Assembly: GCA_016199325.1 (NCBI GenBank) | Contig: JACQGW010000380.1 | Span: forward strand, 1 to 7,865 | DNA: 7,865 bases | Direction: 5' to 3' | Source: Chloroflexota bacterium | GTDB lineage: Bacteria > Chloroflexota > Dehalococcoidia > JACQGW01 | Shown here: piece after piece, positions 1 through 7,865 of the stretch | How the letters are laid out: each line of letters starts with the position of its first letter | Position numbering within the stretch: position 1 is the stretch's first letter | The notes under the pieces: generated by a model | Seen by the model: only the letters and a program-made list of their open reading frames with translations | Told to the model about the DNA's origin: nothing | The model's database searches: none | Position numbers and translations under genes: made by a program

Positions 1-1891
1 CCAGGGCCCGCAGACCGTGGGCGTGACCCCACCCCCGGCCCCTCCCCGCTGCGGGGAGGGGAGGCGGAAGACCCCACCCCCGGCCCCTCCCCGCAGCGGG
101 GAGGGGAGGCGGCAGACCCCACCCCCGGCCCCTCCCCGCTGCGGGGAGGGGAGGCGACAGGGAAGTCCCTGACTCCGGCAGGACTCCCCCTTCCCGCCGC
201 GGGAAGGGGGCCGGGGGATTAGGTCTGTGCCATCGAAGCACTGCCAGCCACAGGCCCAGCAGCGGCCACAGCACAAAACCGGCCCAGTCGTTCCATAACA
301 TGCTCTCGCCATACTGCTGGATCAGGAATGCGGCGAGCCCCCCGGCAGCGCCGAGGGCTGGGCCCTGGAGCGCGGGCGGAAGAGGGGACGTCTGGATCAC
401 GAAAGCCGCGAAACGACGCGAAAAGGCACGAACCGAAGGCTTGTCGTCGACCTGCTCGGCGCTCTCCCTTTCGCGTCCTTCGCGCCATTTCGCGCCCATT
501 CGTGCTCCAAACGTCTCCCCTCGCCCGCCACGCGGGAGAGTGACCGGTGACGAGGGCCAGCCTCCGGCGCGCCACACCGATGTTGCCACCGCGGCGACGA
601 GCCAGATGAGCCCAATAACGCCCATCAGTCCCAGGTCGGCCCAGGTCTGGAGCAGACCATTGTGGGCGTGATCGATCAGGATCCGGTCCTGGTAGAACGT
701 GAAGGCGTCGCCTCCGCCACCGAGGAAATATGGGCGCGCAAACGGGATCGCCAGGGGGAGGTGGTCGAGACCAACGCCGGTCAACGGGTAGAGCAGCAGG
801 AGATCGGCGACTCGCTCCCACAGCGGCCAGCGATTCGTCAGGTAAGCGGTCCAGGGGGCCATCGGCGACGCCCGAAACAGCAGGCCGGCGACGGCGATCA
901 GCGCAGCCCAGAGGGCGGCGACGACAAGCCACGGGAGGCGAAGCAAGCCGACGACGGTGAGCCCCACCAGCAGCGACACCATCGCGTTCCGCGCCTGCGT
1001 CAGGAGCAGGCCGAACGCCATCGCCAGGCCGGCGCCAAGGAGCAGGAACCGAACAGCGGTTGGCGTATTCGCCAGGTCCATGCCAGATCGGCGATCTCTC
1101 CGATTGTCATGCTGAGCTCTCCGATTGTCATGCTGAGCCGCAGCGAAGCATCTCCGTGACGGTGCCGGTTCAGAACGAGGAGATGCTTCGCTGCGGCTCA
1201 GCATGACAGATGAGGAGGCACCAGGATCACCAACGGACTCGCTGCGGTTCAGCATGACAGATGAGGAGGCGCCAAGATCACCAGCGGACTCGCCGGATGC
1301 ACCAGCAACGGGTTTCTGTTTGCCGGTCTCTGGTCTCTGGTTGGGAAAGCGTCGATGCTGGAGCCAGGACCAGAAACCATGGACCACGGACCTGAAACCC
1401 ACCGTCGACCGTGGCTCAGGGCTGATACCTGGCGCGACCAGCACGCCGACGGTGAAGGCCAGGAGCACGGCCAGGGCGCCGCCCACGCTGTTGGCGCGGA
1501 GCGGCGTTTCCGTCAGAAGCGGGAACGAGCGATAGAGCTCCGGCCAGAGGAAGTACTTGCCGGGGCCGACGCCCTCCCACTTGACCAGGAACGGCGAGGC
1601 TACGGCGACGCCGACGCCCGTGAGGACGACGAGCCCGGTCATGAGCTGCATCCGGAGAACCGTGCGGGCGCCGCACGCGGTCAGATAGACAACCGCGACG
1701 CCGGCGGCGAGCCAGAGCGAGCTCCGGAGCGCCCGCGGCACCTCCACCGCCACCGCGAGCCCGACGGCCGCGCCGAGCAGGAGCAGGCCCAGCGGACCCG
1801 CGAGGGGAAGCCCGGTGCCGCGGCGGCGTCGGCCGACGAACAACAGGCCGAGCGCGCCGGCCAGGAGCGCCAGCGCAACAACCGTCGGCAT
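1..1891 (-). CDS. O-antigen ligase/polymerase family membrane protein (OAL-2), 3' end off the left edge, with in-frame repeat insertions
   Basis: A frame open from ATG at 1891 to the left edge gives 630 codons with no stop; I checked every triplet. The core matches the Wzy_C/O-antigen ligase family (PF04932 type), polytopic inner-membrane proteins that polymerise or transfer lipid-linked glycans. Visible signatures are R132-A-N-S-V-G-G, T298-Q-A-R-N at the start of a membrane helix (family form T-x-S-R-G), R354-W...P369-L-T-G-V-G374, and H408-A-H-N411 followed by LLQTWADLGLMGVIGL, the family hallmark. Three low-complexity blocks interrupt it: residues about 153-270, 446-497 and 558 onward. 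All are repeat-derived and hydrophilic. Removing them leaves about 387 residues, near the usual family size. The ATG follows the kinase stop by 3 bases with no Shine-Dalgarno of its own, so translation is probably coupled. Whether it acts as ligase or polymerase cannot be decided. The true C-terminus may be near residue 557, with the rest read-through. Confidence 0.87.
   Translation of the reverse strand, partial: MPTVVALALLAGALGLLFVGRRRRGTGLPLAGPLGLLLLGAAVGLAVAVEVPRALRSSLWLAAGVAVVYLTACGARTVLRMQLMTGLVVLTGVGVAVASPFLVKWEGVGPGKYFLWPELYRSFPLLTETPLRANSVGGALAVLLAFTVGVLVAPGISPEPRSTVGFRSVVHGFWSWLQHRRFPNQRPETGKQKPVAGASGESAGDLGASSSVMLNRSESVGDPGASSSVMLSRSEASPRSEPAPSRRCFAAAQHDNRRAQHDNRRDRRSGMDLANTPTAVRFLLLGAGLAMAFGLLLTQARNAMVSLLVGLTVVGLLRLPWLVVAALWAALIAVAGLLFRASPMAPWTAYLTNRWPLWERVADLLLLYPLTGVGLDHLPLAIPFARPYFLGGGGDAFTFYQDRILIDHAHNGLLQTWADLGLMGVIGLIWLVAAVATSVWRAGGWPSSPVTLPRGGRGETFGARMGAKWREGRERESAEQVDDKPSVRAFSRRFAAFVIQTSPLPPALQGPALGAAGGLAAFLIQQYGESMLWNDWAGFVLWPLLGLWLAVLRWHRPNPPAPFPRREGGVLPESGTSLSPPLPAAGRGRGWGLPPPLPAAGRGRGWGLPPPLPAAGRGRGWGHAHGLRAL
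26..160. repeat. Three tandem 45-bp GC-rich units with internal palindromes
   Basis: Units start at 26, 71 and 116 and differ at only a few bases. Each holds a palindrome of 11+1+11 bases (for example 39-61, arm cccctccccgc), able to form a strong hairpin in RNA or single-stranded DNA. The period is 15 codons. In the OAL-2 frame each unit reads L-(P/S)-P-P-L-P-A-A-G-R-G-R-G-W-G. An 18-base stretch at 30-47 recurs at 7721-7738 in the GT-A gene, so both arrays belong to one element family. Confidence 0.95.
186..210. repeat. Perfect 12+1+12 palindrome, related to the 45-bp units
   Basis: The arm cccccttcccgc is followed by one base and its exact complement. It sits just after the last recognisable OAL-2 membrane segment (ending near codon 557). 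It could act as a 3' hairpin if the gene once stopped there, but there is no U-tract on the minus-strand side, so I do not call a terminator. The adjacent ccgggggatt at 211-220 resembles the ccgggggt edge of the neighbouring units. Confidence 0.9.
383..520. repeat. Imperfect inverted-repeat element with cgcgaa-rich arms, inside OAL-2
   Basis: The left arm (about 383-437) carries agggg-acgtctgga-cacgaa followed by spaced cgcgaa words. The right arm (about 466-520), read as its complement, carries aggggagacgtttgga-cacgaa followed by similarly spaced cgcgaa words. The arms align with a few substitutions and small gaps around a centre near 438-465. The element falls between two membrane segments of OAL-2, encodes residues about 453-503, which are rich in R, E, K and A, and keeps the frame open. 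It looks like a small non-autonomous palindromic element. Confidence 0.7.
514..539. repeat. Degenerate GC-rich palindromic token
   Basis: Stem tctccc/gggaga (514-519 with 534-539) around a 14-base loop. Its composition resembles the tctcccg...cgggaga stems of the right-hand array, so it is probably an older copy of the same family abutting the inverted-repeat element. In the OAL-2 frame it contributes a T-L-P-R-G-G-R-G-E segment around residue 452. Confidence 0.5.
1097..1138. repeat. 21-bp direct duplication
   Basis: Bases 1097-1117 and 1118-1138 are identical copies of a 21-base unit containing gattgtcatgctgagc. The second copy runs into the left arm of the 30-bp inverted repeat, so the first is a partial duplicate of that arm's end. 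In the OAL-2 frame it gives two A-Q-H-D-N-R-R heptads. Confidence 0.95.
1126..1208. repeat. 30-bp perfect inverted repeat with 23-base spacer (REPIN-like)
   Basis: The left arm 1126-1155 (starts tgtcatgctgagccgcagcg) is the exact reverse complement of 1179-1208, with 1156-1178 between. Two identical inverted arms around a short spacer is the layout of REPIN or MITE-like elements. Both orientations are translated in OAL-2: the right arm gives S-V-M-L-S-R-S-E-A-S and the left arm gives R-R-C-F-A-A-A-Q-H-D. In the mRNA it would form a very stable hairpin inside the coding region. Confidence 0.95.
1200..1293. repeat. 51-bp direct repeat, two copies, overlapping the inverted-repeat arm
   Basis: Copy one spans 1200-1250 and copy two starts at 1251 and fades after about 1293, with a few substitutions. 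Each begins with the agcatgaca end of the 30-bp arm, so the pair looks like duplication or decay of the same element. The period is 17 codons. In the OAL-2 frame the copies read G-D-(P/L)-G-A-S-S-S-V-M-L followed by N-R-S-E or S-R-S-E. Confidence 0.9.
1310..1400. repeat. ggtctctgg / ccagaaacc word cluster, weak inverted pair
   Basis: The left half has gggtttctg (1310-1318) and a doubled ggtctctgg (1325-1340). The right half has ccaggaccagaaacc (1364-1378) and ggacctgaaaccc (1388-1400), which are complementary words. It is a different family from the other repeats. It forms the N-terminal part of the first insertion block of OAL-2, directly after a membrane helix ending near residue 152. Confidence 0.6.
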
Positions 1892-1894
1892 GGG

Positions 1895-2914
1895 CTAGCT
1901 GAGCGGCAACGCGAAGGAAAACGCCGTGCGTTTCCCTGGCTCGCTCTCAACCCAGATCCGTCCGCCATGCGCCTCGACCAGGCCCTTGGCGATGTAGAGC
2001 CCCAGGCCCAGCCCCGGCACCTTCTCCTCCCGGGCCAGTCGGGTGCGATGGAACCGCGTGAAGACCGCTTGCCTGTCCTCCGCCCCCAGGCCAGGGCCAA
2101 GATTGGCGACTGAGACCACCACCTCCCCTGGTCGAGGCTCGACGTCAACGAGAATCGGTGAATCCGGATACGAGTACTTGCCGGCGTTGGAGAGCAGGTT
2201 GGTCAGAACCTGCTCGAATCGATCGGCGTCGACCTCCAGCGGGGGGACCGCGCCGCGCACGCCGACCTCGACCGGGTGCCCCTTCGTCAGCTCCTCGGAT
2301 CGCAGGACGATCTCCCGCACCAGAGCGGGGAGATCCCTCAGTTTCTTGTCGATCGTCAATCGGTGGGCCTCGATGCGCGACACGTCCAGGAGGTCTTCGA
2401 TCATCCTGTCCAATCGCCGGCTGTTCGCCACGATGGCCGTCAGCGCTCGCTCCATCCCGTCGGGCAGCGATTCTCTCGTCGCCAGCCGCACCAGGTAATC
2501 GGAATACCCCCTGATCGGCGTCAATGCCCCGCGCAGATCATGGGCGACCACCGAGATGAACTCCTCTCGCCGTTGCCGCTCGACTTCCAACTCCCGGATT
2601 AGTTGCTCGCGCTCCGCCTCCACTCGCTTCCGCTCGGCGATTTCGAGCGCCAGCGGGCGGAGGACCGCCAGGTACAAGACGGGATACAAGGCCATGACCA
2701 CCAGCAGGCTGTCCAGGACTGCCGCCGGCACCTCTTGGAGACCCGGCAGGACGGACGGGAGGGCGAGAGCGATGATGAAATCGATGAGTACGACCGTGGT
2801 CATCAACGCCAGGAGGAGCCGGATGGCGACGTGCGGGCGCTCATCCGCCCGGTCCACCGTCGCCCGGCCCGGTGCCTCCGATGGCCGGGGCTTTCCGTTC
2901 AGTTGGTCGACCAT
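1895..2914 (-). CDS. Two-helix membrane sensor histidine kinase
   Basis: 339 residues. A soluble N-terminus (1-29) precedes two predicted membrane helices (about 30-52 and 63-87) joined by only about 10 residues. A helical, charged, probably coiled-coil linker (about 90-118) leads to a HisKA dimerisation domain with H-box V-V-A-H-D-L-R-G-A-L-T-P and phospho-acceptor H125. The HATPase_c domain follows: N-box N243 in NLLSNAGKYS, G1 box N271-L-G-P-G, F-box near F285/F288, and G2 box G301-L-G-L-G-L. The usual G1 Asp is Asn here, a change tolerated in some kinases. There is no HAMP, PAS or periplasmic sensor domain and no response regulator nearby, so stimulus and partner are unknown. The start is supported by ggagg at 2922-2926, 7 bases upstream. 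It stands between the glycosyltransferase operon and OAL-2, which it precedes by 3 bases. Confidence 0.95.
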   Translation of the reverse strand: MVDQLNGKPRPSEAPGRATVDRADERPHVAIRLLLALMTTVVLIDFIIALALPSVLPGLQEVPAAVLDSLLVVMALYPVLYLAVLRPLALEIAERKRVEAEREQLIRELEVERQRREEFISVVAHDLRGALTPIRGYSDYLVRLATRESLPDGMERALTAIVANSRRLDRMIEDLLDVSRIEAHRLTIDKKLRDLPALVREIVLRSEELTKGHPVEVGVRGAVPPLEVDADRFEQVLTNLLSNAGKYSYPDSPILVDVEPRPGEVVVSVANLGPGLGAEDRQAVFTRFHRTRLAREEKVPGLGLGLYIAKGLVEAHGGRIWVESEPGKRTAFSFALPLS

Positions 2915-3012: not shown

Positions 3013-4074
3013 TCAGTTGCCGGCCGCGGGCGCACGAGCCACCAGCGACTGGTAGATCGCCTCGTACCGGGGGACGACCCGATCCCAGCCGAAACGCTGA
3101 ACGCGCGCGTGTCCACGGTCTGCCAACTCCCGCCGTTGCGAGGGGTCGGCGAGCAGACCGACGAGCGCCTCTCCTAGCGCCCGGTCCCCGCAGATGCGGC
3201 CGAACGCGCCCCCGTCGAGCACCTCCCGCGCCCCGGCGTTCGGCGTCGCCACAACCGGCGTTCCGCTGGCCATCGCCTCGACGTAGGGGACGCCGAACCC
3301 CTCGTAGGAGCTTGGCAGGCAGAAGACCCAGGCCCGCCGATAGAGGTCGACCAGCAGATCCTGGGGGACGCGCGAGTAGGAGACGACGTGCGGCCCCTCC
3401 GCTCGCTCGGGACAGACCATCCACAGCTCGGCGTCGGGCATCGCCGGCAAAACGGTCTCCAGAAAGGCCCGGCGCAGCAGATCGCCGCGCTTGCGGCCCT
3501 GGAGTGAGCCGACGAACAGGATCGACGGATACCTTGACCGGTCGGATTCCGCGCCGGGCCGAAACCGCTCCAGGTTCACGCCGCAGGGAATGACCTCCCG
3601 GATGAACGGGAGCGCCCGCCGGGTGGCCTCCGAGATGCCGACCGTCCAATCGGCCGCCCAGCCGCCGATCCATTCCAGGGGGTACTGGACGCACTGGGAA
3701 AGGGACCGGCGCACGGTCGCGCTCGATCGCGCCTCGTCCAGCGCCGAGCCGTAAAACGTCCGCACCATCGGCGCCGGCCGGTGCAGACACAGGTAGTTGT
3801 CGCCATGAGCGTGGACGACGTCGAACGGGGAGAGGTCCTGACGCGCAAAGAGAAAGGCGACGACGAACGGCAGCAGCCCTTTGCGCCGGCGCAGGTAGGC
3901 CGGCAGCCGGAGCTGCTCCACCCGGTATCGGGCCTCCGGGCAGGAGGGGCTGAGGGTGAACATCGTCACAGAGTGGCCGCGGCCGACGAGCTCGTCGGCG
4001 AGCTGGTGAACCTGGTTCGCCACACCGCCGGTAGACTCCCAGGGCAGATCGATGTGCATCATGGCTATGCGCAC
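3013..4074 (-). CDS. GT4-family glycosyltransferase (GT-C)
   Basis: 353 residues, a normal length for a GT-B-fold retaining glycosyltransferase of family 4, which transfers a sugar from a nucleotide donor to a growing glycan at the cytoplasmic face. The N-terminal acceptor domain starts with a beta-strand and the glycine loop S-T-G-G-V-A-N (14-20) and has H-A-H-G at 88-91. The linker V-I-P-C-G-V-N-L-E-R-F-R-P (161-173) leads to a donor domain beginning I-L-F-V-G-S. The E-x7-E motif is intact: E258-GFGVPYV-E266, followed by A-S-G-T-P-V-V-A-T. The start is GTG at 4074, preceded by GAGGAG in the upstream gene. ATGs at 4062 and 4059 would cut into the first strand. It overlaps the GT-B stop by 10 bases, so translation is coupled. 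The exact sugar and linkage cannot be read from sequence. Confidence 0.95.
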   Translation of the reverse strand: MRIAMMHIDLPWESTGGVANQVHQLADELVGRGHSVTMFTLSPSCPEARYRVEQLRLPAYLRRRKGLLPFVVAFLFARQDLSPFDVVHAHGDNYLCLHRPAPMVRTFYGSALDEARSSATVRRSLSQCVQYPLEWIGGWAADWTVGISEATRRALPFIREVIPCGVNLERFRPGAESDRSRYPSILFVGSLQGRKRGDLLRRAFLETVLPAMPDAELWMVCPERAEGPHVVSYSRVPQDLLVDLYRRAWVFCLPSSYEGFGVPYVEAMASGTPVVATPNAGAREVLDGGAFGRICGDRALGEALVGLLADPSQRRELADRGHARVQRFGWDRVVPRYEAIYQSLVARAPAAGN

Positions 4075-5207
4075 GGGGGATGCTCCTCGTCACCGCGAAA
4101 CGACGCTGGCGACAGCGCCAGGCGGATCGTCGCGTCCACGCGCTCAGCCAGCACGCGATAATCGAAGAGCGATCGAGCCAGGCCAACCCGTTCGTCGGCC
4201 GCGGCGCGCCAGGAAGAGTCGACCAGCAGCTCGCGGATGCGCGCCGCCAGCCGCTCGGGATGCTCGTCGTCACGCACGCCCTGGTACGGGAGCCGCATCT
4301 GTTCCGGCAGGATCGCCTGCGCCTCGCCGACGTCCGTCGCCAGCACGAACCGTCCGCACGCCAGATACTCGGGGAGTTTCGCCGTCGTCCGCCCGGCGCC
4401 CACGGCGTCGTTGGATTGGGTCGATAGGCAGACGTCCATCGCGTTGACGAGGGCGGGGACGCGCTCGTGGGGCACGCGGCCGACGAAGGCAACTCGGTTG
4501 GCGACGCCGAGCTCGACCGCCCGCCGGCGCAGGTGGTCCAGACCGGAGCCACCTCCGACGACGAGCCCCTTCACCGGAAGGTCGCGCAGCTTCGCCAGCG
4601 ACTCGATCAGATCCCAGCCGTAGCAGACGCGATAGCGGGGACTCCAGTTGATCGAGCCGACGACGCCCACGACCAGCGCGTCGCCAAGGTCGAGATGCTC
4701 GCGAAGATGGCGCGCGTCCTGCGGCCGAAAGACGTCGGTGTCGACGCCATCCGGCAGGAACACGACGCGACGGGCGCCCCGAGCCCGGACGAAGGGGTCG
4801 AGATGCCGGCCACGGACGACCACGAGGTCGGCAACCCTGGGAACCAGCCAGTCGCCGAACCGGGCCATCTGGCAGGTGAGGGGGTGGCGACCGGCGCCCC
4901 GCAGCAGCTCAAAGGCAGGATCGCCGATCTCGACGACGAGCTTGAACCCGAGCAGCGGGCGCAGCCCCAGCACCACCGGGCTCGTCGCCAGTCCGACGTC
5001 GATCCAGTAGACCAGCGACGGCCGCAACTGCGCCAGCGGGAGGGCGTACCGCGCGACGCTCTCAAGTCGCCCCCCTGACCGGTACAGAATCGCCGAGCGA
5101 TAGCGATGGTCTAGGCGGCCGAAGATCTCCCGTGCCCGCCGGGCCTGGATGCTGTCCGCCCCGCCGTTGACGACCACGGCGAGCGCGGGCTTGCCGGCAG
5201 CGATCAT
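4065..5207 (-). CDS. GT4-like glycosyltransferase (GT-B)
   Basis: 380 residues from ATG 5207. I chose this start because it makes an ATGA overlap with the upstream stop (5204-5206) and places the first beta-strand P-A-L-A-V-V-V-N-G-G (7-16) at the N-terminus; the frame stays open upstream only as antisense-type noise. The linker L-P-D-G-V-D-T-D-V-F-R-P (151-162) and V-V-G-S-I-N-W (182-188) open the donor domain; V-V-G-G-G-S-G at 216-222 is a typical GT-B strand-loop. The usual E-x7-E is replaced by T-T-A-K-L-P-E-Y-L-A-C-G-R (275-286), where K277 and E280 occupy the donor-binding region, as in a recognised subset of GT4 enzymes. It probably adds one sugar of the same glycan as its neighbours. 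Substrate unknown. Confidence 0.93.
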   Translation of the reverse strand: MIAAGKPALAVVVNGGADSIQARRAREIFGRLDHRYRSAILYRSGGRLESVARYALPLAQLRPSLVYWIDVGLATSPVVLGLRPLLGFKLVVEIGDPAFELLRGAGRHPLTCQMARFGDWLVPRVADLVVVRGRHLDPFVRARGARRVVFLPDGVDTDVFRPQDARHLREHLDLGDALVVGVVGSINWSPRYRVCYGWDLIESLAKLRDLPVKGLVVGGGSGLDHLRRRAVELGVANRVAFVGRVPHERVPALVNAMDVCLSTQSNDAVGAGRTTAKLPEYLACGRFVLATDVGEAQAILPEQMRLPYQGVRDDEHPERLAARIRELLVDSSWRAAADERVGLARSLFDYRVLAERVDATIRLALSPASFRGDEEHPPCA

Positions 5208-6676
5208 CTCGACGGTTTCCCGATCAGCGTGTGGATGCGCTCGACCATCCCGACGCCGATCCAGAAGTACACCGCCGTCGGGAAGGTGTAGAGCGGCGCA
5301 TACGAGAAGCTCAGCACGAACACCGCCAGGAAGTAGCAGCCAAGCACAGCGGCAAGCCAGGCAAGGTCGTCGTCGACCCGCGACCGTGCCACCGTGAAGG
5401 CTCGCCAGATGGCGACCACGAACACGAGGACCATCAGGACAAGCCCGAGCGCGCCCAACTGGAAGGTCACGCCGACCAGGAAGCTCTCGGCCCACAGCAA
5501 CGGCTCGCTGGACGTCGTCAGGTGGCGCGCGGAGGCCAGCGTCAGCCCGATCCCGCGACCAAAGGGCGCCACCGACGTCGCCGTCTCAAGTGCAAGGGTA
5601 AGTCCCGGCAGCATCGACTGGAGCACGGGCGTCTGGCGCCCGCCGATCTGGCCGCTCACCGTGAGCGATTCGAAGCGGGCTTCGAGGAACGGACCGCCGA
5701 GGGTGAAGGCAAACGCAAGACCGCCAAGCACCGGCAGGGCGACCTGCGGGATGCTCCGGAAGCTGACCCCCCGGAGAACGCCGAGCATCGGTACGCTGAC
5801 CATCAGCAGGACCCAGTTGGAGCGCTGTCCCCCAATCGCCGTGCCGAGGACGCTGGCGATCAGCGCCGTCCAGGCCAGATACTTCGGCCCAAGCCCCAGC
5901 GACGGCAGATTGACGACCCCCAGAGTCATCAGCACCGTGAAGAGCTGAAAGCCGCCGTACTGGCCGGGGGCCGCAAAGGTCGAGGACGGACGGAAATAGC
6001 GCAGCGAGCCGTCCGGGCCGACCTCGAACTCGATGGGCTTGAGGCCGAGCTGTTGCTCGTACACGCGGGGCCCCAGCGAAAACTGGTAGACGCCGTAGAG
6101 CTCGACCGGCAGCGCGACGAGGGTAATGAACAACGCCACCCGGACGAGCTGTTCCCTGGTCTCGCAGATCGCGTGGACCAGGTAGGCCGCCGTAATATAG
6201 ATGAAGAGCGATCGCAGGCCCAGCGCGGCGACCAGCGGCCCTCCGCCGGCCGGATTCACCGCCTGGATGAGCCCGAGCACCAGCAGCCCGACGAGCACCG
6301 GGTTCAGCGGCGAGCGGAAAAGCAGCCGGTTGCGGCGGAACAGCGACTCCGCGAGCATGCCGAAGAACATGGCCGCCAGGAACACGTCCTTGACCAGGTA
6401 GATCTGCGGGTTGTCATTCAGGACGACCAGCAGCCCCTCAATAGACAGCAGCAGCAGGACGGGGAGGATGCCGAGTCGCCAGCGGAACGCGAAGAACAGG
6501 ACGACCGGACCGAGCACGAACGGAGCGATCTCCAGGCCGAACTGGAGGGTGCCCTGCACGTAGCGACTGACGATCCAGAACGAGAGATAGAGCGAGCCGG
6601 CGATGATCCCGATCTTGGCGAGGGGAATCCACACCTGCGGTCCGGGCACGAAGCCCCGCCGGCTACGGAAGGACAT
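5204..6676 (-). CDS. O-antigen polymerase/ligase-type polytopic membrane protein (Wzy-1)
   Basis: 490 residues with roughly 11-13 hydrophobic segments, including 20-40, 50-65, 68-86, 95-112, 126-140, 150-170, 177-196, 240-258, 266-281, 287-300, 309-327, 395-425 and 438-460. The largest hydrophilic loops lie at about 200-235 and 328-395. Family-type signatures are F-R-P-S-S-T-F-A-A-P-G-Q-Y-G-G (228-242), I-G-G-Q-R-S-N-W (281-288, position of the usual S-R-G motif at a helix start), and P-F-G-R-G-I-G-L (371-378) before the last helices. It resembles Wzy/ExoQ-like polymerases of exopolysaccharide clusters and is the likelier polymerase of the two here because it sits inside the GT operon. ATG 6676 has AAGGAG about 8 bases upstream and overlaps GT-A by 14 bases; its stop overlaps the GT-B start. 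Unlike OAL-2 it carries no repeat insertion. Confidence 0.9.
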   Translation of the reverse strand: MSFRSRRGFVPGPQVWIPLAKIGIIAGSLYLSFWIVSRYVQGTLQFGLEIAPFVLGPVVLFFAFRWRLGILPVLLLLSIEGLLVVLNDNPQIYLVKDVFLAAMFFGMLAESLFRRNRLLFRSPLNPVLVGLLVLGLIQAVNPAGGGPLVAALGLRSLFIYITAAYLVHAICETREQLVRVALFITLVALPVELYGVYQFSLGPRVYEQQLGLKPIEFEVGPDGSLRYFRPSSTFAAPGQYGGFQLFTVLMTLGVVNLPSLGLGPKYLAWTALIASVLGTAIGGQRSNWVLLMVSVPMLGVLRGVSFRSIPQVALPVLGGLAFAFTLGGPFLEARFESLTVSGQIGGRQTPVLQSMLPGLTLALETATSVAPFGRGIGLTLASARHLTTSSEPLLWAESFLVGVTFQLGALGLVLMVLVFVVAIWRAFTVARSRVDDDLAWLAAVLGCYFLAVFVLSFSYAPLYTFPTAVYFWIGVGMVERIHTLIGKPSR

Positions 6677-7865
6677 GCGGCACGCTCCTTGGCGACGGGC
6701 GCCGGGGCGGTTCCAGGACAGCCAGCAGACGACGGGCGACCTCGGGCCAGGCGAACTCGGCCTCGAAATGCCGCCGCGCGTGACGCCCGAACGCGGCGCG
6801 CCGGGCGGGGTCGGCGGCCAGCTCGCCGACGACCGCCCGGAATTCGTCCGGCCGGTCGAGCGGCACGAGCACGGCCGAGCCGGCAGCGATCAGGTCGTCC
6901 CCGGTATTGTACCCCCGCGTCGAGACCGTCGCCAGCCCATGCGCGAGGCCGGCGATAAGCGTGGTTCGTCGCGTCGAGGCGCCGTCGGCGAACGGGATCA
7001 GGTAAAGGTCGGACGCCGTCAGGAGGCGTCCGACCTCGCCAGCGGGCAGATGTCCCGTCCACATGATTATGTCGAGTGACGGCCGGCGGGACGCGTCGCA
7101 CCGGTCGAGCAGCGCGCGCACCTCGGCCTCCGTCGCGGCGATGCAGACGAGACGCGCCGGCCGGACGCGCGCCACGCAGGCAAGCGATTCCAGCACGAGC
7201 ACGCCGAGCTTGCTCGGGTCGCCGGGGTTCATGGTCGACAGCAGCGTCGTCCCCTCGGCGGCACCCCACCGTCGCCGAACGTCCGCCCGCGCCGCTGCCG
7301 GGAGATCGACGACGGGTATGTTCGATCCGACCGGGATCAGCCTCACACTGTCCCGCCGGGACGGGAACCACCGCCGCAGCCACGCCAACCGCTCGAAGCT
7401 CGGCACGACCAGCGCATGGCTCCCCACGATCAACAGTGCGACAATCGCCCGCTGCATCGCGCTACGGCCCAGGGCAACCGGCGCCGGCCGCCAGGGGACG
7501 AACATCTCGTGCAGCACGGTCACGACCCGGACCCCGGCGCGGCGCAGGCGCAGGGGCAACAGCCCCATCGCAACAGGCACGCCGCGATGGTCATACATGA
7601 AGGGCGAGTACTGGAGCAGGACCGTGTCGGCCTTCGCGCGGTTCGCAAGCTCCACGGCGGCGTCGACCGCTCGCAGCCCCCAGGCGGGAGGCAGCCGGAG
7701 GACCTCGACGGGGAGGCCCTCACCCCCGGCCCCTCCCCCGCGCGACGGGAGAGGGGGGACGGCGGGAGGCTCGCCCTCACCCCCGGCCCCTCTCCCGCGC
7801 GACGGGAGAGGGGGGACGGCGGGGGACGGGCCCTCACCCCCGACCCCTCTCCAGCGCGACGGGAG
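6663..7865 (-). CDS. GT4-like glycosyltransferase (GT-A), 5' end off the right edge, with in-frame repeat array
   Basis: Open from the right edge to the TAG at 6663-6665, giving 400 residues without a native start. A GTG at 7655 could begin a shorter protein, but the upstream V-E-V-L-R-L-P-P-A-W-G-L-R-A-V-D segment (about 52-67) reads like the middle of a GT N-terminal domain, so the gene should start beyond the window. Residues 1 to about 50 are encoded by the 57-bp repeat array. Next come L-L-Q-Y-S-P-F-M-Y-D-H and V-T-V-L-H-E-M-F (acceptor domain), L-I-P-V-G-S-N-I-P (linker), and a donor domain with D-L-Y-L-I-P-F-A-D-G-A-S-T-R-R-T-T-L and A-H-G-L-A-T-V-S-T, which stands in for the classical E-x7-E region. 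It overlaps Wzy-1 by 14 bases as the first visible gene of the operon. Donor and acceptor unknown. Confidence 0.9.
   Translation of the reverse strand, partial: LPSRWRGVGGEGPSPAVPPLPSRGRGAGGEGEPPAVPPLPSRGGGAGGEGLPVEVLRLPPAWGLRAVDAAVELANRAKADTVLLQYSPFMYDHRGVPVAMGLLPLRLRRAGVRVVTVLHEMFVPWRPAPVALGRSAMQRAIVALLIVGSHALVVPSFERLAWLRRWFPSRRDSVRLIPVGSNIPVVDLPAAARADVRRRWGAAEGTTLLSTMNPGDPSKLGVLVLESLACVARVRPARLVCIAATEAEVRALLDRCDASRRPSLDIIMWTGHLPAGEVGRLLTASDLYLIPFADGASTRRTTLIAGLAHGLATVSTRGYNTGDDLIAAGSAVLVPLDRPDEFRAVVGELAADPARRAAFGRHARRHFEAEFAWPEVARRLLAVLEPPRRPSPRSVPHVLP
7716..7865. repeat. 57-bp tandem GC-rich array (2.6 copies, continues off the edge)
   Basis: Units start at 7716, 7773 and 7830, each opening with gccctcacccccg. 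Unit two contains a hairpin with 11-bp perfect stem and 5-base loop (7787-7813, arm cccctctcccg); unit one has a mismatched version. The period is 19 codons, translated in GT-A as V-P-P-L-P-S-R-G-(R/G)-G-A-G-G-E-G and variants. It shares an 18-mer (7721-7738) with the left-edge array but is translated in a different frame there. Confidence 0.95.

Follow-up and report, generated by a model that had tools for sequence, protein, structure and literature searches.

In-frame repeats of several types in loop- and tail-coding parts of a putative Wzy_C-family gene from Chloroflexota

Introduction

Small dispersed repeats can become part of bacterial proteins. Rickettsia palindromic elements are palindromic inserts that are read in frame within protein genes (PMC10969869). 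REPs tagged GTAG or CGTC are small palindromes that are mostly intergenic and sometimes lie in genes, and coding clusters of them span 43-82 residues in both Thauera and R. conorii (PMC3733652). Fusions between MITEs and genes have been described in Coxiella (PMC5896051) and in enterobacteria (PMC2759123). Judged from the accessible parts of these papers, in-frame capture of palindromic repeats is on record for Rickettsia and other, mostly proteobacterial, species (PMC10969869, PMC3733652, PMC5896051, PMC2759123).

Here we analyze a 7,865-nucleotide stretch, contig JACQGW010000380.1 of a Chloroflexota bacterium (assembly GCA_016199325.1), which we call the window. A sequence-only reading of it had likened repeats within a membrane polymerase or ligase gene to Rickettsia palindromic elements. 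As a way of working the likeness appears sound: as in the accessible account of those elements, several palindromic families occur in frame within unrelated protein genes and elsewhere in genomes. The comparison does not extend to sequence, and here the phylum is another, families are mixed in one loop, one block reaches about 120 residues, and the other proteins that carry the repeat we call type B are multi-pass membrane glycosyltransferases. The emphasis for intragenic REPs, in the available part of that report, is instead on genes for DNA synthesis and repair (PMC3733652). As in the MITE fusions of Coxiella and enterobacteria, small mobile repeats would extend or enter reading frames, but those are single families as far as the parts of the papers at hand describe them, whereas the window has mosaics of several types with tandem growth. 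The host gene product resembles the Wzy_C/WaaL family (PF04932) in its Pfam match, ten invariant residues and helix order; what sets it apart is that repeats code for two long loops and for the tail.

Results

The window holds six minus-strand genes of an exopolysaccharide gene cluster (Table 1). One of them encodes a histidine kinase, which thus sits within a polysaccharide gene cluster, and another a second polytopic protein with some likeness to the polysaccharide protein HpsL. The ATG of the gene under study lies three bases past the histidine kinase stop codon, in this same-strand cluster.

Table 1. Features of the window (strand given where assigned; residues are those of the 2-1891 product)
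Feature	Positions	Strand	Remarks
Putative Wzy_C-type polymerase/ligase gene	2-1891	-	630 codons; runs open off the contig edge
Block 3, C-terminal tail after the last helix	2-223	-	residues 557-630; repeats to about residue 622
Type A tandem array	25-156		45-nt units, 2.9 copies; in block 3
Further A-like palindromic copy	188-206		84% to reference copy
Block 2, between two membrane helices	377-559	-	residues 445-505 (about); excess vs relatives
Type C repeat	385-500		in block 2; hairpin z -3.0 (395-500)
A-like stretch	512-568		81% complementary to 7762-7818; overlaps end of block 2
Predicted catalytic core	560-1066	-	residues 276-444; Pfam match and 9/10 invariant residues
Block 1, between two membrane helices	1067-1435	-	residues 153-275 (about); excess vs relatives; coding frame alone open; flat codon-position GC
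Tandem units of the other B arm end	1096-1138		21-nt units; in block 1
Type B palindrome	1126-1208		arms 1126-1155 and 1179-1208, 30 nt, 100% complementary
Tandem units holding one B arm	1188-1293		51-nt units; in block 1
Type D stretch, non-palindromic	1300-1420		21-nt tandem at 1359-1399; in block 1
Histidine kinase gene	1895-2914	-	directly before the polymerase gene
Glycosyltransferase gene	3013-4074	-	
Glycosyltransferase gene	4065-5207	-	
Polytopic protein gene	5204-6676	-	no Pfam match; weakly HpsL-like, far below model cut-off
Cut GT4-like glycosyltransferase gene	6663-7865	-	upstream part off contig
Type A tandem array	7716-7865		2.6 copies of a 57-nt unit; read in frame within the cut glycosyltransferase gene 6663-7865(-)

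The frame at 2-1891(-) had been described as open for 630 codons, with all conserved motifs outside the repeats, and both statements hold. It has no stop up to the contig edge, so the true C-terminus lies off the contig. Residues 289-428 match Pfam Wzy_C (PF04932) at E = 2.8e-10, with 40.6 bits against a curated cut-off of 31.7. All ten invariant residues (R354, W358, P369, G372, G374, H410, N411, G421, G424 and W542) are present, each outside the blocks. By family membership, the product is predicted to be a Wzy_C-family glycan polymerase or ligase. Its identity to 15 aligned relatives is 19-24%. A PDB search by sequence returned no match. The predicted model of the product is poor overall (mean pLDDT 51), with pLDDT below 50 across residues 123-276 and 568-630. 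Both splicing and ribosome bypass of the blocks were weighed as explanations and set aside as unnecessary, given that the reading frame is never interrupted.

Relatives have short loops where the two internal blocks lie. In an alignment, G424 and W542 are 117 residues apart in the window and 55-61 apart in 15 of 15 relatives, which gives block 2 an excess of 56-62 residues over every one of them. Block 1 was measured by the distance between motifs because the aligner paired this block with other helices; for the same reason the anchor distance 142-301 (158 in the window vs 134-158) was uninformative as a measure and was set aside. The two anchors were the helix motif, which reads RANSVGGALAVLL in the window and NAREVGGTMAMLL, RSNFLGSYLVMAI or HPNxLALYLER among the relatives, and the core motif, which reads LTQARN in the window and LTFSRG in many relatives. 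They stand 164 residues apart in the window, compared with 40-47 in all 13 relatives caught by the motif search, which missed L086 and L090. The excess for block 1 is thus 117-124 residues (13/13), and the relatives' loop at this site is short and often arginine-rich. These distances bear out the claim that the frame resumes after each internal block. The third block, at the C-terminus, is of another kind. It is a tail that runs to the contig edge, nothing known resumes after it, and the last eight residues before the edge (window bases 1-24) are non-repeat sequence outside the array at 25-156. Together the three blocks occupy roughly 40% of the visible frame. No relative whose loops are just as long but free of repeats, which would have spoken for ancestral loops, appeared among those examined.

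Closer comparisons were sought in several collections. The core (residues 270-445) returned only itself among 7995 scored candidates from 5.8 billion proteins, and was found in 0 of 400 Chloroflexota genomes at E 1e-8. In the order of genome G001 it matched in 10 of 61 genomes at E 1e-4 (best 1.4e-8), and in the order of genome G004 in 3 of 5. For the neighbouring 490-residue protein, 25 pattern matches in genome contigs yielded 0 confirmed cases. Neither a close orthologue nor a DNA-level empty site, and hence no target-site duplication, was found in the 5.8 billion proteins, the 400 Chloroflexota genomes or the order of G001.

The blocks are built from four repeat types, A, B, C and D, in agreement with the earlier count of at least four. 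Three of them are palindromic as had been claimed, folding into hairpins better than shuffled sequences do (z -10.4 for B, -5.8 for A and -3.0 for C). Type D, which occurs once in the window, is not significantly so (z -0.55). MITE-like terminal inverted repeats are seen in type B only, and Rfam gave no match. Compared with CGTC-tagged REPs, B has no consistent CGTC tag: the base before GTCATSCTGAGC at the B arm end is C in 29 and T in 57 of 95 contexts outside the window, and T in 3 of 3 within it.

Base composition sets the blocks apart. In the host segments, GC content by codon position (1/2/3) is.78/.51/.92,.72/.49/.83 and.70/.50/.76; it is nearly level in blocks 1, 2 and 3 (.63/.61/.56,.70/.62/.68 and.84/.78/.77). 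The blocks thus lack the codon-position GC pattern of the host gene, and their composition is foreign to it. In the B region (residues 200-268) each of the five other frames has 2-5 stops and the coding frame none, and across the whole of block 1 each non-coding frame has 2-6. Only B's open frame carries weight, because block 2 is open in three of six frames, block 3 in two and type D alone in five.

The tandem periods in the window (45, 21, 51, 21 and 57) are all divisible by three, compared with 6 of 17 periods of outside arrays found by TRF in the fetched loci (Fisher p 0.018), a small control sample whose arrays are not each proven non-coding. For this count nine rows with period 12 or 14 were dropped, one period was taken per overlapping array, L196 and L197 were excluded because they duplicate L193, and L118 was merged with L067; an alternative choice of periods likewise gave 6 of 17. 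A pattern-based spacing search gave two outside spacings, 43 and 128.

The HxHN loop of Wzy_C-family proteins is periplasmic. Hydropathy and this family layout place loop 340-420 in the periplasm and the two internal blocks at the cytoplasmic face, and the loops on the block side hold 16 Lys/Arg residues compared with 8. The hydropathy plot missed the last two helices, and the side assigned to the tail rests on relatives. We infer that the blocks are cytoplasmic. This speaks against the suggestion that they may form new surface loop domains. Nor do folded domains of any kind find support in the pLDDT values below 50, which come from a poor model.

The same kind of insert occurs in other membrane enzymes. 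A search with the B peptide (residues 198-268; proteins of about 346-1102 residues; 107 candidates; E 0.01) returned the window protein and four others, all multi-pass membrane glycosyltransferases named Chloroflexi. Unrelated genes thus share one reading frame of B: one Wzy_C, three GT39 (PMT_2) and one YfhO. A protein search detects only in-frame copies, and so it gives no rate of in-frame insertion. By eye, P0002 has type A inside and a D fragment besides B; P0003 has five tandem B half-peptides, D and a piece of A; P0005 has D besides B; and P0004 has B only, so that A and/or D accompany B in three of the four. P0003 has 141-148 extra residues between paired matches relative to YfhO relatives in six genomes, and 174 extra relative to L157. 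Counted on an alignment, P0004 has about 90 residues where its three relatives have 26, 26 and 33. P0002 and P0005 are weaker cases because B lies near their C-terminal end; their PMT_2 matches end at residue 159, where the A block starts, and at residue 213, within the D stretch. With short loops in relatives and block composition foreign to the host, this recurrence in four other membrane enzymes upholds the proposal of repeated insertion into tolerant loops. A search with the type A peptide returned only itself among 7984 scored candidates and is taken as uninformative, since low-complexity candidates probably took up the list.

Outside these genes, 22 of 400 Chloroflexota genomes contain B DNA, no more than two candidates having been scored per genome, and C was found at 11 places in six of the 400, three of which (G196, G305 and G310) also carry B. 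In the genome set a 26-base B probe hit 26 stretches. Chloroflexota titles account for 25 of them, with 16 coming from a single Thermomicrobiales bin, and the remaining one is on an Acidimicrobiaceae contig. The latter, L077, is a 3192-base bin contig with type B at its edge, and is either from another phylum or a mis-binned Chloroflexota contig.

Fifty-six loci (L055-L080 and L096-L125) gave 59 B rows, of which at least three are duplicates (L096 = L080, L118 = L067, L120 = L097); L103, L107 and L122 gave none. Five of these rows, at four places (L066, L070, L080/L096 and L123), have a frame that extends at least 100 codons to either side, and Pfam found no match to the frames at those four places. 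Ten B frames in all were tested with Pfam, and the one match was L124, a PrsW frame with the element about 37 codons from its upstream end. The frame at L080 is arginine-rich, had no NCBIfam match and was read as a shadow frame. B therefore looks intergenic in these reference genomes, which come from lineages other than the window's own. As a peptide, B matched in 24 of the 400 Chloroflexota genomes, the one frame of more than 300 codons being the L080 place, in 2 of 61 genomes in the order of G001 and in 0 of 1 in that of G003.

Plasmids gave no match to C or D. A stretch with B and D gave one weak match, in which Hymenobacter plasmid NZ_CP095062.1:164280-164378 matches the B region at 77%, with no annotated gene beneath; this hints that such repeats cross phyla. 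In viral contigs the exact C pattern and the exact 28-base B pattern had no match, and a looser B pattern had one. A type A 23-mer occurs in 54 stretches (L001-L054) of IMG/VR contigs, which are viral carriers of the repeat or in some cases bacterial.

Both contig ends are close to repeats. The high end is inside a type A array, and 24 bases separate the low end from a second such array. The in-frame array at the high end comes just before the part of the cut glycosyltransferase to which relatives could be aligned (12 of the 15 loci). It sits where relatives have a loop of the glycosyltransferase N-terminal domain.

Discussion

We consider it likely that dispersed repeats were inserted several times at loop- and tail-coding sites of this gene, that in-frame, stop-free versions were kept, and that these then grew in tandem by whole codons while the core stayed intact. 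On this account, REP/MITE-like repeats (A, B and C, together with the non-palindromic D), presumably of mobile origin, would land in DNA. Within genes, the copies that survive would be ones whose orientation and frame are open and whose site codes for a flexible cytoplasmic loop or the tail. Half-elements would then duplicate in tandem, with selection keeping whole-codon versions, and the catalytic part, on the opposite side of the membrane, would be spared. The blocks would be translated into protein, and the enzyme that carries them would still work.

The loops could instead be adaptive, the repeat-coded segments being kept for a function such as partner binding or tuning of polymer length rather than merely tolerated. 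Whole-codon expansions, and the presence of the B peptide in a total of five membrane enzymes, are what such a role might produce. However, block peptides differ from one protein to the next in their length and order, the base composition of the blocks is still that of non-coding DNA, and no folded structure is predicted for them in what is a poor model, so we regard an adaptive role as unlikely. We give somewhat less credence to a young pseudogene, in which selection has relaxed, repeats have piled in, and a stop or frameshift has yet to fall. Blocks that occupy so much of the visible frame would suit such a gene, but a decaying gene would not be expected to retain all ten invariant residues, a strong third-position GC in the host segments and a frame that resumes past both internal blocks.

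An assembly artefact, with short reads misjoined at repeats to give a chimera or wrong repeat counts, is more improbable still. The contig is metagenome-like and ends in one repeat array and 24 bases from another, and repeat copy numbers in the assembly may be wrong. A chimera is nevertheless hard to reconcile with block flanks that follow one another, in frame, just as they do within a single protein family, or with similar inserts in the separately recorded P0003 and P0004. That the loops are old, native segments of a subfamily that resemble repeats by chance is scarcely credible: no close orthologue was found to date them, but all measurable relatives have short loops, the inverted repeat is perfect over 30 nt, and DNA copies of B and C are dispersed in other genomes.

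Repeated insertion followed by in-frame tandem growth thus remains our preferred reading. Capture of repeats in frame is itself known. What is new here is, most likely, the mixing of several repeat families in membrane glycan-assembly enzymes, and in another phylum; a literature search, thin in subscription journals, turned up no account of inserts like these in membrane glycosyltransferases from Chloroflexota. The finding yields a testable rule: a cytoplasmic loop tolerates repeats when their length is a whole number of codons. There is also a warning for annotation, since a peptide like SEASP..RCFAAAQHD within a protein may stem from repeat DNA and need not be a domain. A broader idea, which we put forward tentatively and think doubtful, is that in one Chloroflexota lineage several repeat families at once have a standing sink in the membrane glycan-assembly enzymes. 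Repeats would enter cytoplasmic loops in frame and then expand by tandem duplication of whole codons, and loops in polymerases and glycosyltransferases would thus shift in length with the repeat dynamics. If true, this would amount to repeat-driven diversification of the surface polysaccharide machinery.
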